In this document: piece after piece, positions 47,026 through 58,484 of the stretch
Position numbering within the stretch: position 1 is the stretch's first letter
How the letters are laid out: the number at the start of each line of letters is the position of its first letter
Assembly (NCBI GenBank): GCA_030019255.1
Contig: JASEFK010000003.1
Coordinates: forward strand, 1 to 64,000
DNA length: 64,000 nucleotides
Reading direction: 5' to 3'
DNA from: Actinomycetota bacterium
Lineage (GTDB): Bacteria; Actinomycetota; Geothermincolia; Geothermincolales; RBG-13-55-18
Made by a program: the position numbers and the translations under genes
Notes under the pieces: generated by a model
What the model was told of the DNA's origin: nothing
Databases searched by the model: none
The model's input: the letters and a program-made list of their open reading frames with translations, nothing else

Positions 47026-47205
47026 GTTCGCCTTTCCCACCTCTTTTCGGCGACGACCGCCGTTTTCCGCGCCGCCACCTGCTTTCCCGGATCCCGGTGA
47101 GTGGTGTTTTTCCGGACAGTCTATTCCCGGCTCACACTACCAGTGTAATATAATCCGTCCCCATCGGGATTGATGTCTTCCTCTCACCGGGATACACACC
47201 TCCCT

Positions 47206-47326
47206 GTTCCGCATTCCCGCTCCACCATTCCGCACTTCCGGTTCACCATTCCGCATTCCATGTCCACCATTCCGCACTTCCGGTTCACCCATGTCATTGA
47301 GAGGTATTCCGCACTCCCCGTCCACC
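47206..47326. repeat. 21-bp tandem repeats
   Basis: Four contiguous 21-bp units (47206-47289) with consensus ATTCCGCACTTCCGGTTCAC plus one base, then a 16-base break (47290-47305) and a fifth unit (47306-47326). Units vary at a few positions and no unique spacers lie between them, so this is not a CRISPR array. Confidence 0.85.
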
Positions 47327-47329
47327 TAT

Positions 47330-47419
47330 GTCATTGCGAGGAGGCGCGGAGCGCCGACGAAGCAATCTCGCGGGGCGATGCGCTTCCGGGTGGGATCGCT
47401 TCGCTTCGCTCGCGATGAC
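47330..47419. repeat. Dispersed inverted repeat (GTCATTGCGAG element)
   Basis: The 90-base element begins GTCATTGCGAGGAGGCGCGG and ends TTCGCTCGCGATGAC, with complementary ends, and contains GACGAAGCAATCTC and GGGATCGCTTCGCTT arms. A related partial copy lies at 61131-61170. Similar sequences are scattered in many bacterial genomes as non-autonomous mobile or REP-like elements. Confidence 0.75.
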
Positions 47420-47477
47420 AAGAAAAGGTCCTCGCGATGGCAGAAAGGGACCTCGGGATGACAGAAAAGGTCCTTGG
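47414..47477. repeat. Second 21-bp tandem repeat array
   Basis: Three units at 47414-47435, 47436-47456 and 47457-47477, consensus GATGACAGAAAAGGTCCTCG plus one base, starting from the terminal GATGAC of the adjacent inverted repeat. Copies differ at several positions. Confidence 0.8.
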
Positions 47478-47508
47478 AATGGCATGTTGGGGTACATCAC
47501 CGGGACCT

Positions 47509-49704
47509 TCACCCGCCGGCCTCCCCGCTCAGTATCCGCTCCAGGGCCTCCTCCCTGGCCCTGGACATGTCGAGCAGGCCGAGGTCTATCCAGTCGTTCA
47601 CCACCAGGCGGTTGCCCCCCGTCTTCCCCAGCACGGATAAGGGAATCTGCCGGCTCCCTGCCAGGGCACGGAGGGAATCCAAGTCCTCTTCGGTCACCGT
47701 GACCACGAAGCGCGACTGGCTCTCGCCGAAGAGCCAGGCATGGGGCGGCAACCCGGTCTCCACACGCAGGGAGGCTCCCACCCCACCCGCGCAACAGCAC
47801 TCCAGGAGGGCCAGGGCCACCCCGCCCTCCGAACAGTCATGGGCCGAGAGCACCATGCCGCGGCGGATGGCCTCGATGCAGGCGGTCTGCACCCTCTTCT
47901 CCAGGTCCAGGTCCAGGCGGGGAGGGCTCCCTGCCACCAGCCCGTGGATCAGCCTCAGGTACTCTGAGCCCCCCAGGTCCTCGCCGGTCTCGCCCAGAAG
48001 GACCACTAAAAGTCCCTCGCCGGGGAAACCCATGGTGCGGCGGTGGGCCAGGTTGCCGATGAGTCCCACCATGCCCACGATGGGAGTGGGATAGATGGCC
48101 TTCCCGAAGGACTCGTTGTAAAAGCTCACGTTCCCGCTCACCACTGGCAGCTCCAGGAAACGCGCCGCGTCGGCCAGCCCGCGCACTGACTCCCTGAATT
48201 GCCAGAAAATGTCAGGTCTCTCCGGATTCCCAAAGTTCAGGCAGTTGGTCAGGGCCATGGGCACGCCTCCCGAGGCCACCACGTTGCGAGCCGCCTCGGC
48301 CACAGCTATCTGGGTGCCCAGGTAGGGATCCAGGTATACGTAACGCGAGTTGCCGTCGCAGGATATGGCCAGGGCCTTGCTGGTGCCCTTAACCCGCAGC
48401 ACGGCGGCATCGGATCCCGGGTAGACCACGGTATTCAGCTGCACCATGTGGTCGTACTGTTCGTAGACCCATCTCTTGTCGCAGAGGTTGGGGCTGCCCG
48501 CCAGGCGGAGCAGGACCTCGCCGTAATCCGAGGGGTGATCCAGGGAGGAGAGGTCCAGGGACCGCACCTCGTCCAGGTATTCCGGCCTCTCCGAGGGTCG
48601 GTCGTAGACCGGTCCCTGGGCCAAGGTGGTGGCGGGCACGTCAGCCACCTTCTCCCCGTGCCAGTAGACCTCCAGCCGGTCCCCCTCGATGACCTCCCCG
48701 ATGACCACGGCGTTGAGGTCCCACTTGCCACAGATTTCCATCACCTGGTCCAGCTTGGAGGGCTCCACGATGGCCAACATGCGCTCCTGGGACTCGGAGA
48801 TCATGATCTCGAAGGGTTCCATCTCCTCGCGCAGGGGGACCTTCTCCAGCCACACCCTCATGCCCACGCCACCGCGGGCGGCCGTCTCCGAGCAGGCGCA
48901 GGACAGCCCGGCAGCCCCCAGGTCCTGGAGCCCCACCAGGAGGCCTCGGTCCAGGAGCTCCAGGCAGGCCTCGATAAGCAGCTTCTCGGTGAAGGGATCG
49001 CCCACCTGCACGCTGGGGCGTTTCTCCTGGCTGGTCTCGTCGAACTCCTGCGAGGCCAGGATGGAGGCGCCGCCTATGCCGTCCCTGCCGGTGCGGTTCC
49101 CGATGAGCACCACCGCGTTGCCCACCCCGGTAGCCACGCCCCGAATGAGCTTCTCCTTGGGCATGATTCCCACGCACATCACGTTGACCAGGGGGTTCTC
49201 GTCGTAGCAAGGATCGAAGTAGATGTCCCCGCCCACGGTGGGGATGCCCAGGCAGTTGCCGTACCCGGCGATTCCGGCCACCACGCCGCTTAAGAGGTAG
49301 CGGTTGCGAGGCTTGGAGGGGTCACCGAAGCGCAGGGGATCCAGGCAGGCGATGGGCCGGGCCCCCATGGTGAAGATGTCCCGCACGATGCCCCCTATGC
49401 CCGTGGCCGCCCCCTGGTAGGGCTCCACCGCGCTGGGGTGGTTGTGGGACTCCATCTTGAAGGCCACCGCCAGCCCGCCCCCGATGTCGATTACCCCCGC
49501 GTTCTCACCCGGTCCCTGCAGCACGTAGGAGGCCCGGGTGGGAAGCTGGGAGAGCACCATCTTGGAGCTCTTGTAGGAGCAGTGCTCGCTCCACATGAGG
49601 GAATACATCCCCAGCTCCACCTTGTTGGGTTCCCGCCCCAGGAGCCGGACGATGTCCCGGTATTCGTCCGCCGTCAGACCCAGTTCCTCGTACAGCTCCG
49701 CCAT
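47509..49704 (-). CDS. purL: Phosphoribosylformylglycinamidine synthase, large subunit PurL
   Basis: A 731-residue ATP-dependent synthetase of the small (PurLQS) type. Motifs: ELGMYSLMWSEHCSYKSSK (with catalytic His), GPGENAGVIDIGGGLAVAFKMESHNHPSAVEPYQGAATGIGG read in pieces, DPLRFGDP, GIPTVGGDIYFDPCYDENPLVNVMCVG, QDLGAAGLSCACSE, CLNFGNPERPDIF and SAHDCSEGGVALALLE. ATG 49704 is used since GGAGATGAGG precedes it; the frame runs on to 49785. It needs the glutaminase PurQ (next upstream gene) and PurS, here part of the PurC fusion. Confidence 0.97.
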   Translation of the reverse strand: MAELYEELGLTADEYRDIVRLLGREPNKVELGMYSLMWSEHCSYKSSKMVLSQLPTRASYVLQGPGENAGVIDIGGGLAVAFKMESHNHPSAVEPYQGAATGIGGIVRDIFTMGARPIACLDPLRFGDPSKPRNRYLLSGVVAGIAGYGNCLGIPTVGGDIYFDPCYDENPLVNVMCVGIMPKEKLIRGVATGVGNAVVLIGNRTGRDGIGGASILASQEFDETSQEKRPSVQVGDPFTEKLLIEACLELLDRGLLVGLQDLGAAGLSCACSETAARGGVGMRVWLEKVPLREEMEPFEIMISESQERMLAIVEPSKLDQVMEICGKWDLNAVVIGEVIEGDRLEVYWHGEKVADVPATTLAQGPVYDRPSERPEYLDEVRSLDLSSLDHPSDYGEVLLRLAGSPNLCDKRWVYEQYDHMVQLNTVVYPGSDAAVLRVKGTSKALAISCDGNSRYVYLDPYLGTQIAVAEAARNVVASGGVPMALTNCLNFGNPERPDIFWQFRESVRGLADAARFLELPVVSGNVSFYNESFGKAIYPTPIVGMVGLIGNLAHRRTMGFPGEGLLVVLLGETGEDLGGSEYLRLIHGLVAGSPPRLDLDLEKRVQTACIEAIRRGMVLSAHDCSEGGVALALLECCCAGGVGASLRVETGLPPHAWLFGESQSRFVVTVTEEDLDSLRALAGSRQIPLSVLGKTGGNRLVVNDWIDLGLLDMSRAREEALERILSGEAGG

Positions 49705-49952
49705 GGCCTCATCTCCAATCGCCGTTCCACCGCATCCGTCACCGCTCCGCCTATTCCGTCCCCGCTTGCCCCGGCGATCGACCACGCAAAATTGTACGAT
49801 ACCCCATTTTCAGGCTCTCCCCACCTTGTCTCGTTTTAACTTCCCCGGCGATCGACCCCCGGCAACCGAAACGGGCCTTCCTTCTCGCCTCGGTTACACC
49901 TGGCCCCAACCTCGATCTACCTGGCATATTATTCCAGCTACGGCTCACGTCC

Positions 49953-50651
49953 TCATCCCCTTTCCCGGTAGTGCTCGAGGATGGATTCCCAGATCACCAG
50001 GCCGTCGGTGCTCCCCAGTATCTCCTCCGAGGCCCTCTCCGGGTGGGGCATGAGTCCGAAGACGTTAAATCCTTCGTTGCATATGCCGGCGATGTTGTCC
50101 AGGGAACCGTTAGGGTTGGACTCCGGGTTGACCTCACCGTTCTGGTCACAGTAACGCAGTATAACCCGCCCCTCCTCCACCAGCCGCCGGTGGGTGGCGG
50201 GATCCACCACGTAATTGCCCTCGTTGTGGGCTATGGGAATACGCAGGACCTGCCCCGGCTGAGCGCGGTTGGTCCAGGGGGTGGCGGTGTTTTCCACCCT
50301 CAGGTTTACGAAGCGGCAGATGAAATGGAGGCTGGTGTTGCGCAGCATGGCGCCGGGGAGCAGTCCCGCCTCCAGGAGGATCTGGAATCCATTGCAGATG
50401 CCGATGACCAGCCCTCCCTCCCGGGCGAACCCGGCCACCGCCTCCATGACCGGGCTGAAGCGGGCTATGGCCCCGCACCGCAGGTAATCTCCGTAGGAGA
50501 ATCCGCCCGGCAGGACCAGGCAGTCGTAGGACGAGACGACCCTTTCCTTGTGCCACACGTAATCCACGTCCTCCCGGAGTACCTTGTCGATGACGTGATA
50601 ACAATCCGCTTCACAGTTGCTACCGGGGAAGACCACCACTCCGAACTTCAT
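49953..50651 (-). CDS. purQ: Phosphoribosylformylglycinamidine synthase, glutaminase subunit PurQ
   Basis: A 232-residue class I amidotransferase. [18 protein letters not shown] at the start, [19 protein letters not shown], nucleophile [18 protein letters not shown], and catalytic His-Glu in [17 protein letters not shown] 50651 has GAGGAGAGG ahead. Lies 248 bases upstream of purL in the direction of transcription. Confidence 0.96.
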
Positions 50652-50865
50652 GGACACCTCTCCTCGGGGTCAAGAACTTTTACCAGTTATTACCTTTTCA
50701 GCACTTTCCTCCATCCCGCTCTCCACCGCCCGGCCGGCGAACCCGTCCCGGTACATAACCGGGGTCACCGCCTTTTCCTTTCCGGGTCCCCGCCATCCTT
50801 TTCCGAACCCTTCCCGTACATCCCGGAACCGGTTCCCGGGGCGGAATCATGGTCAACCCGTCTCC

Positions 50866-51819
50866 TCACTCTATCTCCACCCGGTAGTCCTCGATGATGG
50901 GGTTGGCCAGCAGGCGCTCGCACATCTCCCTGACACGCTCCTCGGCCTTGCCCTCATCCACTCCCTCCAGGCGCAGGGTGATGTACTTGCCGATGCGCAC
51001 GTCTTTCACCTCGTCGTAGCCCAAGGACTTGAGGGCGCCCAGGGCAGCCTGACCCGCGGGATCGAGAATCCCCTTCTTGGGAGATACGTAGACCGCGGCG
51101 GCGATGCCGGTCTTTTCCTCGCTTATCCGGCGCAGGACCTCGGCATAGGTCTCCTCCACCCTCCCCAGGTCCTTTCGAAAACGGTCCTTGTCCATGATCT
51201 CCCCCGTCTCCGCGTCCCACAACCGGCACACGTCGGGGCTGAACTCGTCCCCCAGAAGGAGCCTCCCTTCCCGCGTCCCGAACTCCAGCTTGAAATCGGC
51301 CAAGATGAGCCCGCGTGCCTCGAAGTAGGGGCGCAGGATCTCGTTCACCCGCAGGGCTATGGAGGTCATCTCGTCCAGTTGCTCGTCGCCGGCCAGCCCC
51401 AGCTCATGGATGTGCTCACGAGTCAGCATGGGATCGCCAAGCTCGTCGTTCTTGTAGTAGTACTCCACGATGGGGGCCTTCATCTCCGTGCGCTCCGGGT
51501 AGCCCAGGCGCTTGGCCAGGCTTCCGGCGGCGAAGTTGCGCACGATTATCTCCACCGGGATCATCTCCAGCCACCAGGTGAGGATCTGGTTATCGGAGAG
51601 GAGCTTGATGTGGTGGGTATGGATGCCATGTTTTTCCAGGTACCGGAAGATAATGTCCGACATCCGGGCGTTCACCTTGCCCTTCCCGGCGATGACCCCG
51701 CGCTTCTTGCCGTCGAAGGCGGTGGCCTCGTCCTTGAACTCGTGGATGACCTGGCCGGGCTGGTCGGTGGCATAGACCCTCTTGGCCTTGCCCTCGTAGA
51801 TGAGTTCCCGCTTTTCCAT
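50866..51819 (-). CDS. purC: PurC-PurS fusion: SAICAR synthase with FGAM synthase subunit PurS
   Basis: One continuous 317-residue frame holds two enzymes. Residues 1-235 are a standard PurC: KRELIYEGKAKRVYATD, FKDEATAFDGKKRGVIAGKG, VNARMSDIIFRYLEKHG, MIPVEIIVRNFAAGSLAKRLG, LADFKLEFG and LLGDEFSPDVCRLWD. Residues about 238-317 are a full PurS: AAAVYVSPKKGILDPAGQAALGALKSLGYDE, VRIGKYITLRLEG and MCERLLANPIIEDYRVEIE. The short junction is RRISEEKTG. PurC makes SAICAR; PurS bridges PurL and PurQ. ATG 51819 follows CGGAGAG. No separate purS is present in the cluster, which supports a functional fusion. Confidence 0.93.
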   Translation of the reverse strand: MEKRELIYEGKAKRVYATDQPGQVIHEFKDEATAFDGKKRGVIAGKGKVNARMSDIIFRYLEKHGIHTHHIKLLSDNQILTWWLEMIPVEIIVRNFAAGSLAKRLGYPERTEMKAPIVEYYYKNDELGDPMLTREHIHELGLAGDEQLDEMTSIALRVNEILRPYFEARGLILADFKLEFGTREGRLLLGDEFSPDVCRLWDAETGEIMDKDRFRKDLGRVEETYAEVLRRISEEKTGIAAAVYVSPKKGILDPAGQAALGALKSLGYDEVKDVRIGKYITLRLEGVDEGKAEERVREMCERLLANPIIEDYRVEIE

Positions 51820-51836: not shown

Positions 51837-53138
51837 TTAGATCACCAACTCCTCCAGGCGCTTGAAGATGCGCCCCAGGTTGCGCAGGTGGGAAGGGAGG
51901 TCGAAGCAGGCCTCGAGCTCCTCCCGGTCGAGATACCCGATGACCTCGGGGTCTTCCAGGAGCAGGGCAAGAAAATCCCTCCCCGTGGACCAGGACTGCA
52001 TGGCGTTGCGCTGCACCAGCGCGTAGGCTTCCTCCCGCGTCAGACCCTTCCTCACCAGGGCCAGAAGCACGCTCTCCGAGAAGACCAGGCCGCGGGTGAG
52101 CTCCAGGTTGCGGCGCATGTTCTCGGGGTAGAGGCTGAGACCGCGCATCACGCCGTGGAACTTCACCAGCATGTAGTGGAGCAGGGTGGTGGAATCGGGG
52201 ATGATTACCCGCTCCACCGAGGAGTGGGAGATGTCCCGCTCGTGCCACAGGGCCACGTTCTCCAGGGCCGCCAGGGCGTTGGACCTCAGGACCCTGGCCA
52301 GGCCGCAGATGCGCTCGCAGAGGATGGGGTTGCGCTTGTGGGGCATGGCGCTGGACCCCTTCTGCCCCCGCCGGAAGGGCTCCTCCGCCTCCCGGACCTC
52401 GGTGCGCTGCAGGCCCCGCACCTCCAGGGCGAACTTCTCCAGGCTGGCCCCGGTCACGGCCAGGGCCACCAGGTACTCGGCGTGGCGGTCCCTCTGCAGG
52501 ACCTGGGTGGAGACCTCCGCCGGTCGCAGTCCCAGCTTGCCGCACACGTACTCCTCCACCCAGGGGTCCAGGTGGGCGTAGGTGCCTACGGCGCCGGAGA
52601 TCTTGCCGTAGCTTATGACCTCCCGGGCGCGGCGCAGGCGCTGGATGTTCCTCGCCATCTCGAAGGCCCAAAGGGCCAGCTTCTGGCCGAAGACCATGGG
52701 CTCGGCATGCACGCCGTGGGTGCGCCCCACCATGACCATGTCCCGGCATTCCAACGCCTTGGACCTGAGCGTGGAAGTCAGGGCCACCGCCTCGTCCAGG
52801 ATGAGGTCCATGGCCTCCCGCATCTGGAGGGCCAGGCCGGTGTCCAGGATGTCGGAGGAGGTCATGCCGTAGTGGATGTAGCGGGAGGCCTCCCCCACGT
52901 TTTCGGCCACATTGGTGAGGAAGGCGATGACGTCGTGGTGGACGGTCTCCTCTATCTCCTTAACCCTGCGGGGATCGAAGGCCGCCCGGGCCCGTATCTC
53001 CTCCAGGGCCTCGCGGGGGACCTCCCCCCGTTCCACCCGCGCCTCCACGGCCAGGATCTCGATCTCCAGCCACTTGCGTAGCTTGTTCTCCTCGCTCCAG
53101 ACGGAGGCCATCTCGGGGAGGGTATAGCGTTCGATCAT
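51837..53138 (-). CDS. purB: Adenylosuccinate lyase
   Basis: A 433-residue lyase used twice in purine synthesis (SAICAR to AICAR, adenylosuccinate to AMP). MIERYTLPEMASVWSEENK at the start, HHDVIAFLTNVAENVGE, IHYGMTSSDILDTGLALQM, GRTHGVHAEPMVFG, and the fumarase-superfamily signature GSSAMPHKRNPILCERI. It lies 17 bases upstream of the purC-purS gene. An AGGAG directly before ATG 53138 overlaps the usual spacing, so initiation may be weak. Confidence 0.97.
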   Translation of the reverse strand: MIERYTLPEMASVWSEENKLRKWLEIEILAVEARVERGEVPREALEEIRARAAFDPRRVKEIEETVHHDVIAFLTNVAENVGEASRYIHYGMTSSDILDTGLALQMREAMDLILDEAVALTSTLRSKALECRDMVMVGRTHGVHAEPMVFGQKLALWAFEMARNIQRLRRAREVISYGKISGAVGTYAHLDPWVEEYVCGKLGLRPAEVSTQVLQRDRHAEYLVALAVTGASLEKFALEVRGLQRTEVREAEEPFRRGQKGSSAMPHKRNPILCERICGLARVLRSNALAALENVALWHERDISHSSVERVIIPDSTTLLHYMLVKFHGVMRGLSLYPENMRRNLELTRGLVFSESVLLALVRKGLTREEAYALVQRNAMQSWSTGRDFLALLLEDPEVIGYLDREELEACFDLPSHLRNLGRIFKRLEELVI

Positions 53139-53319: not shown

Positions 53320-53778
53320 CTATCCTTTCGAGAGGCTGTCGCGATAGGAGCGCCAGGCCTCGGCCACCTCTTCGTATTTCAGGGCCAGAATGGAGCAGGC
53401 CAAAAGGGCAGCGTTCACGGCGTTGTCCACCGCCACCGAGGCCACCGGGACCCCCCGGGGCATCTGGACCACGGACAGCAGGGCGTCCAAGCCGCCCAGT
53501 CCACCGGAGGAGAGGGGCAGGCCGATGACCGGTAGGGTAGTGAGAGAGGCTACCACCCCGGGAAGGTGAGCGGCCATGCCCGCGGCAGCGATGAAGGCCT
53601 CCACCCCCCGCGAAGGGGCCTCCTCCCGGACGAACTCCCACAACCTGTCCGGCTGACGGTGGGCGGAGATGACTTCCCAGATCACCTCCACGCCCATCTT
53701 CTCCAGGGTCTCCGCCGCGGGACGCACCCGTTCGCGATCCGACTCCGAGCCCATGAGCAAAGCGACTACCGGTGCCAT
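53320..53778 (-). CDS. purE: N5-carboxyaminoimidazole ribonucleotide mutase (PurE)
   Basis: A 152-residue protein. Motifs: VALLMGSESDRERVRPAAETL, EVISAHRQPDRLWEF, FIAAAGMAAHLPGVVASLTTLPVIGLPLSS, and LLSVVQMPRGVPVASVAVDNAVNAALLACSILAL. The SAHR motif and overall pattern suit bacterial PurE. No purK partner is found in this cluster, so the enzyme either relies on a distant purK or uses AIR and CO2 directly. Confidence 0.94.
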   Translation of the reverse strand: MAPVVALLMGSESDRERVRPAAETLEKMGVEVIWEVISAHRQPDRLWEFVREEAPSRGVEAFIAAAGMAAHLPGVVASLTTLPVIGLPLSSGGLGGLDALLSVVQMPRGVPVASVAVDNAVNAALLACSILALKYEEVAEAWRSYRDSLSKG

Positions 53779-57169: not shown

Positions 57170-57392
57170 GCGGCGTGATCCGCCTTCCCCTTCTCCCCGC
57201 AAGACCGTCGGGAACCCGGGGACCCGTCCGGAAGCCGGGAAGCCGGGTCCAAGAAGGGGGGGAGAAGATCCGGCAAGCGCATGGCCGCTTCCTCCGAGAA
57301 GCGCGGCGTGATCCGCCTTCCCCCTTCTCCCCGCAAGACCGTCGAGAACCCGGGGACCCGTCCGGAAGCCGGGAAGCCGGGTCCAAGAAGAG
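57170..57392. repeat. 89-bp direct repeat
   Basis: 57170-57258 and 57303-57392 are almost identical, differing by one inserted C and two or three substitutions. Both begin GCGGCGTGATCCGCCTTCCC and end GAAGCCGGGTCCAAGAAG. A 44-base segment separates them. They lie between the broken purC and purA; nothing coding is recognisable here. Confidence 0.9.
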
Positions 57393-57456
57393 GAATATTC
57401 TGGAAGCTGATGCCCCGCACCGCCGGGGTGGAGGTGCGAGGCACACCGAGCGCCGC

Positions 57457-58484
57457 CTACTTCCCGAGCCACTCCCCCAAATCGGCGAGGATATCCTCGA
57501 GCGGGGGCGCATTGAAGAAGCGCTTCCCGGTGATGCCGTTGCAACAGCCCTGGTAAAGCAGGGAGATAAGCTCCTTCAACCTTCCGGGTAGAGGGGGAGG
57601 CGCCTGTCTTACCAGGCTTTTCCATTCCAGCCGGTTAGCCTTCTTTGCCGCCTCGACCTCCCTGCTCCAATCCGTCCTGCGGTAGAAGATCCTGGCGATC
57701 TACTTACTTACCGGCATTCCCCGGTACTCGAACCGGCACTCGTCCGGCGTTCCCAGGACGTCCACCAGCATGAGCCTCCGGTTCTCGTCGAAGGAAAACT
57801 CCACCTTGCCGTCCTGGTTTACCAGTCCCAGGGCTGCACGGTGCGTGAGATGAGGTCGTTGATGCGCAGGGTGGCCTCCCGCAACGCCTGGAGCTCCTCG
57901 CTCGATAGCCCGGAGATCTCCCGCGCCTCCTCCCACCCCAGGTAGCGGTCGGTTGCCTCCAGCTTGGTGGACACGTCGAGAAGGGGACGTTCCAGTTGTT
58001 CATCCGGGGCGGGGAGCGCCTCCAACCTCAGCCCCTCGAGGCGCAAGCTCCCCTCTTCCAGGCGTCGGAAGACGCTGGATCCCTCCGGGAGAGAGTTGCG
58101 GTAAATCACCTCCAGAAGGATGAGGAAGTTGCCCCTCTCCCCTCGATATACGGAGTAATCATAGGCATCTCCGGCCGTGCCGGGCCTGATCACCCGGACC
58201 AGTTTCACCTCCATGGTGTCCACCGGGCCATCGAGATCGGCCAGGCGGCGTGCCTTTCCATCCCGTCCCACCACCCCGAGGTAGTGGGTGGCCATCCCCA
58301 TCTCCTCGAGCCTCTCGAAAAAATAGGCCCCCATGAGGCATAAGGCAGCGCCCTTGCCCTCGATGTGGTCCGGCATTTCTCCCCAATCGAAAGCCGAGCA
58401 ACGGTCGGAGAAGTGAAATCTCCCCCGTCCCGCCCTGTCCTCGGAGGGAACTTCCAGCACCTCCAGGTCCTTGACGCTCCCCAC
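57457..58484 (-). pseudogene. purC: Second SAICAR synthase (long form), broken
   Basis: From GTG 58484 (GGGAGGATGGGG ahead) the frame reads GSVKDLEVLEVPSEDRAGRGRFHFSDRCSAFDWGEMPDHIEGKG when joined, the start of the roughly 340-residue long-form SAICAR synthase found in some archaea and bacteria. It is intact to PWDW, where a stop comes at 57819. One missing G in a GGG run near 57830 explains this: the next frame resumes with GLVNQDGKVEFSFDENRRLMLVDVLGTPDE and runs to GMPVSK, where TAG (57702-57704) replaces an expected Glu codon. It then continues IARIFYRRTDWSREVEAAKKAN to EWLGK and a final stop at 57457. Total span equals a full-length gene. The PurC-PurS fusion downstream makes it redundant. 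Confidence 0.85.

Follow-up and report, generated by a model that had tools for sequence, protein, structure and literature searches.

A purC-purS gene fusion joins SAICAR synthase to the PurS subunit of FGAM synthase in a lineage of Actinomycetota

Most fusions known among the enzymes of purine biosynthesis combine adjacent pathway steps or pieces of a single enzyme. In animals, PAICS unites SAICAR synthase with AIR carboxylase in a single polypeptide, joining the consecutive steps 6 and 7, and large PurL, the single-chain FGAM synthase, contains a PurS-like part fused to its own complex partners. Short bacterial PurC (TIGR00081; PDB 2ywv, 3nua, 2gqr) has no C-terminal PurS domain, while the PurS of the PurL-PurQ-PurS type of FGAM synthase (TIGR00302; PDB 1t4a, 3d54) normally exists on its own as a protein of about 80 residues. 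PurS forms a homodimer (PMC3815217), and PurL, PurQ and PurS assemble in a 1:1:2 ratio, with two PurS per PurL-PurQ (PMC10912719). The gene described here, found in a stretch of 64,000 nucleotides of actinobacterial DNA (the window), encodes a protein with the whole fold and the checked contact residues of short PurC, behind which a full PurS domain is tied; as in other genomes of this type, purQ and a small purL lie beside it. Like PAICS it fuses SAICAR synthase to another purine-pathway domain, and like large PurL it places a PurS domain within a purine enzyme, but here a catalytic enzyme is coupled with a non-catalytic subunit of another step (step 4), and PurS is fused to PurC instead of to its own partners.

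The fusion gene occupies positions 50866..51819 on the reverse strand, the strand being unstated in the initial annotation, with its ATG at 51819 and its stop codon at 50868-50866; a single frame of 317 amino acids spans both domains and has no internal stop. Residues 7-231 (51127..51801) match PF01259 (SAICAR_synt; E 1e-82; profile 2-232 of 233) and residues 241-316 (50872..51099) match PF02700 (PurS; E 5e-31; profile 2-77 of 77), all on the reverse strand, and since the profiles are covered nearly whole both domains are full length. The initial annotation had read one frame running from a complete PurC through a short link into a complete PurS, and this is borne out: the link counts about 9 residues (232-240, ISEEKTGIA; 51100..51126, reverse strand), comprising the end of the PurC C-terminal helix and a short loop. 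The join therefore lies at about 51126-51100, where 51080-51120 had been named earlier. Scores exceed the cut-offs throughout: PF01259 reaches 277.9 bits (cut-off 20), TIGR00081 236.5 (189.9), PF02700 107.2 (22.2), NF004630 107 (75) and TIGR00302 101.6 (39), so that the NCBIfam equivalog models for purC and for PurS are both exceeded in one protein. Among solved structures, phmmer matched the PurC part to 2ywv (1e-74) and the PurS part to 1t4a, the PurS of B. subtilis (6e-19). Contact residues were mapped on an E. coli PurC sequence whose numbering agrees with the published list. The residues checked for contact with CAIR and ADP (K11, K13, R94, S100, D175, E179, R199 and R215, E. coli numbering; PMC3261824) are all kept. 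By domain, score and residues the N-terminal half is PurC, with activity predicted from its sequence. In an AlphaFold2 monomer model (mean pLDDT 89.9, pTM 0.73) both folds are present, the C-terminal helix of PurC extending over residues 221-233 and the first PurS strand beginning at 239, with a block of lower confidence (pLDDT about 69) at the short link between them. Foldseek gave TM scores to target of about 0.96-0.97 for solved PurC and about 0.63 for PurS.

The gene order is purB-[purC-purS]-purQ-purL. The upstream neighbour purB (adenylosuccinate lyase; 51837..53138, reverse strand) is kept in relatives, and the ATG of the fusion follows close behind its stop, with an RBS-like GGAGAG upstream of the start. 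Profile matches identify purQ, the glutaminase subunit of FGAM synthase (49953..50657), and the small form of purL, which partners with PurS and PurQ (47509..49785), both on the reverse strand. A fusion of the PAICS type was considered and set aside, as purE is a gene of its own at 53320-53778. Imperfect 21-nt tandem repeats lie between purF and purL (47186-47341 and 47421-47484).

The PurS half thus co-occurs with small PurL and PurQ in a genome where a genome-wide search returned no other PurS, in agreement with the earlier remark that purL and purQ here lack any other purS partner. By score and context it is a PurS domain, but it is not a free PurS. A second purC is present in the window as a pseudogene (57478..58484, reverse strand) of the long, PRK13959-like form related to NCBIfam NF010566. 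Compared with the intact copy of a congener (G298, L161), which occupies the same place between the gene of an FAD oxidoreductase and purA, it shows a frameshift of one base near 57831 and, at about 57702-57700, a TAG in frame. A sequencing slip is an unlikely cause of two separate lesions. With the second purC broken and no other PurS, this genome probably has no SAICAR synthase and no PurS besides the fusion. Between purA and the pseudogene stand two 73-nt direct repeats (57187-57259 and 57321-57393) that are 97% identical.

The same fusion, sought in related genomes, was found in seven others of the family, 78-93% identical and in the same place of the operon. The family, one of uncultured actinobacteria, is judged to be Candidatus Geothermincolaceae from one of the relatives, Candidatus Solincola tengchongensis, whose genus NCBI places there. 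In the family sample of 15 genomes, 14 had a PurS match and 8 carry the full fusion (four genomes of genus g1 and two from each of the genera g2 and g3), all 8 with every checked PurC contact residue kept; a degenerate form occurs in G293 (g6). In the non-family genomes sampled, purC and purS are two genes, in many cases neighbours divided by a single stop. Neighbours of this kind, seen in many other bacteria sampled, could be merged by an assembly or sequencing error that removed the stop. We regard such an error as hardly credible here and reject it: the same uninterrupted frame, with its spacing and link conserved, recurs in the seven separately deposited MAGs, and relatives that lost PurC still keep its tail in frame before PurS. 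Neither a separate intact purS nor a restriction of the fusion to one assembly was found. Outside the family no uninterrupted purC-purS frame was seen among 284 other Actinomycetota genomes, among 248 genomes of a Bacillota-centred draw, among 111 of a Thermus-centred draw, or at 75 non-family loci of a GTDB-wide scan. None appeared either in draws centred on an alphaproteobacterium (398) or on Nitrospirales (198), where the strict cut-offs (1e-88 and 1e-92) could miss divergent fusions. This is a real gene fusion and, among the bacterial samples searched, a lineage-restricted one. A search of the open-access literature found no report of a PurC-PurS fusion; the term 'purCS' in PMC3261824 reads as a plural of PurC, and no passage on a fusion was seen there. 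Two genomes of the same class, G122 and G299, had no match to the SAICAR synthetase family, by gene loss or an assembly gap, and G122 does have a PurS match.

The link offers a clue to the origin of the fusion. In three relatives (G251, G198 and G297) it encodes GGAGG about 8 nt before an ATG or TTG at codon 239, which from its sequence could be a usable purS start, giving free PurS as well. The link of the window gene aligns with this ribosome-binding site and start; here codon 239 is ATC, and codons 222-262 contain no in-frame ATG, GTG or TTG. An ordinary internal start is therefore an unlikely source of free PurS in the window genome, and any partner bound by PurS would also hold PurC. The initial annotation had proposed that the fusion fixes the stoichiometry of SAICAR synthase and the FGAM synthase complex; as a general rule this is not supported, since it need not hold in the three relatives with a Shine-Dalgarno motif and start. 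Conceivably the cell depends instead on free PurS, released by internal initiation or by proteolysis of the link, the fused form being incidental to FGAM synthase. The three retained starts speak for this, as does a short, Glu-rich link in the less confident part of the model, and even in the window a non-standard start at the ATC or proteolysis could still release PurS; the missing start codons nevertheless make it an improbable account of the window gene. In the simplest account, the ancestor of the family would have had neighbouring purC and purS genes; with the purC stop gone and purS in the same frame, one protein would have resulted, its Glu-rich link translated from the former ribosome-binding site of purS. 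Fused and free PurS would both have been made at first, until decay of the internal start left the fused form only. Once that start and the second purC had decayed, the fusion would be hard to reverse.

Relatives allow its later history to be followed. A tree built from eight further purine proteins has G293 branching first, followed by (g1, g2) against (G144, (g3, g5)), with G133, G229 and G068 falling outside. At the locus of the fusion, G133 carries purC and purS as two genes less than 200 bp from each other, and its unfused PurC is sister to a single clade of all fused PurC domains except that of G293 (bootstrap 96 and 100 in one tree, 100 and 97 in another). Five relatives have PurS alone: G112 (g3), three genomes of g5, and G144. 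All of these but G144 still have a PurC tail (AEVLRR..EEE and variants; residues 226-240) in frame before PurS with nearly unchanged spacing, and in G176 a piece of PurC 180-225, broken by a frameshift, survives upstream of PurS. Together, tree and remnants indicate that the fusion came first and that its PurC half was then deleted at least three times (in G112, g5 and G144), the loss in G144, which shows no visible PurC tail, following from the tree. That the unfused state is ancestral within the family is accordingly unlikely, given four free PurS with an in-frame PurC tail and the broken piece in G176. All five PurS-alone relatives have an apparently intact long purC, and wherever the locus was seen in the family, the genome encodes at least one PurC, fused or long, that appears intact; a long purC match is absent from the incomplete assemblies G283 and G198, and in G251 the gene runs into an assembly gap. 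The window genome took the opposite course, keeping the fusion while its long purC broke.

G293 carries an in-frame purC-purS fusion (L030:1489-2439, reverse strand) whose PurC half lacks residues that contact CAIR: the substitutions R94W, D175S, R199L and R215A remove these contacts. Read-through hence does not guarantee PurC activity. The frame is open over 317 codons, its link EEKPG aligns to EEKTG with no gap, and the genome also has an intact long purC. The PurC branch of G293 is about ten times the median length and stands apart from other fused PurC, and a single clade including it was not rejected (AU p 0.20). From this result and from a link of the same length and pattern, a single origin shared with the other fusions is preferred over an independent one. 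Differences at the three codon positions of its PurC half are 0.51, 0.37 and 0.61, against about 0.7 for unrelated sequence, and this half is either decaying in a frame that PurS holds open or a retained inactive domain.

As for function, the PurC domain would make SAICAR while the PurS domain would complete FGAM synthase together with PurL and PurQ. If PurS still docks, tethering of PurC to the FGAM synthase complex can soundly be deduced, and with two PurS per PurL-PurQ an obligate fusion would bring up to two PurC domains to each FGAM synthase. Such an assembly might have been selected as a metabolon, SAICAR synthase beside FGAM synthase speeding flux or shielding intermediates; the PurC residues kept in all eight genomes and the broken second purC of the window genome are in line with this. 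Steps 4 and 7 are not consecutive, however, so channelling is not implied; sister lineages have also shed the PurC half at least three times, and one PurC half is degenerate, which makes a selected metabolon a rather remote prospect. Any benefit of tethering is hypothetical; the repeated losses speak against a strong one and suggest that selection on the link itself is not strong. With the PurC half missing from five relatives and its residues lost in G293, the tie appears dispensable where a second purC exists. A tolerated accident seems to describe the fusion better than a maintained channel. We consider it likely that a stop-loss fusion, tolerated as an accident, serves the window genome as its sole SAICAR synthase and PurS, doing both jobs on FGAM synthase; in this explanation the sequence, its conservation, the single copy, the pseudogene and the remnants are observed, while expression, catalysis, assembly, an uncleaved product and the stop-loss route are inferred. 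It is also possible, if doubtful, that in some members, the window genome included, SAICAR synthase is permanently and obligately attached to FGAM synthase in an assembly of steps 4 and 7, the PurC half of G293 being inactive and structural.

The relatives show each stage, namely separate genes, a possible internal start, obligate fusion, a degenerate PurC half, and PurS alone with a PurC tail, and form a compact natural series for testing if selection maintains a fusion or only tolerates it. Automatic annotation in this class may miss purS or miscall purC.
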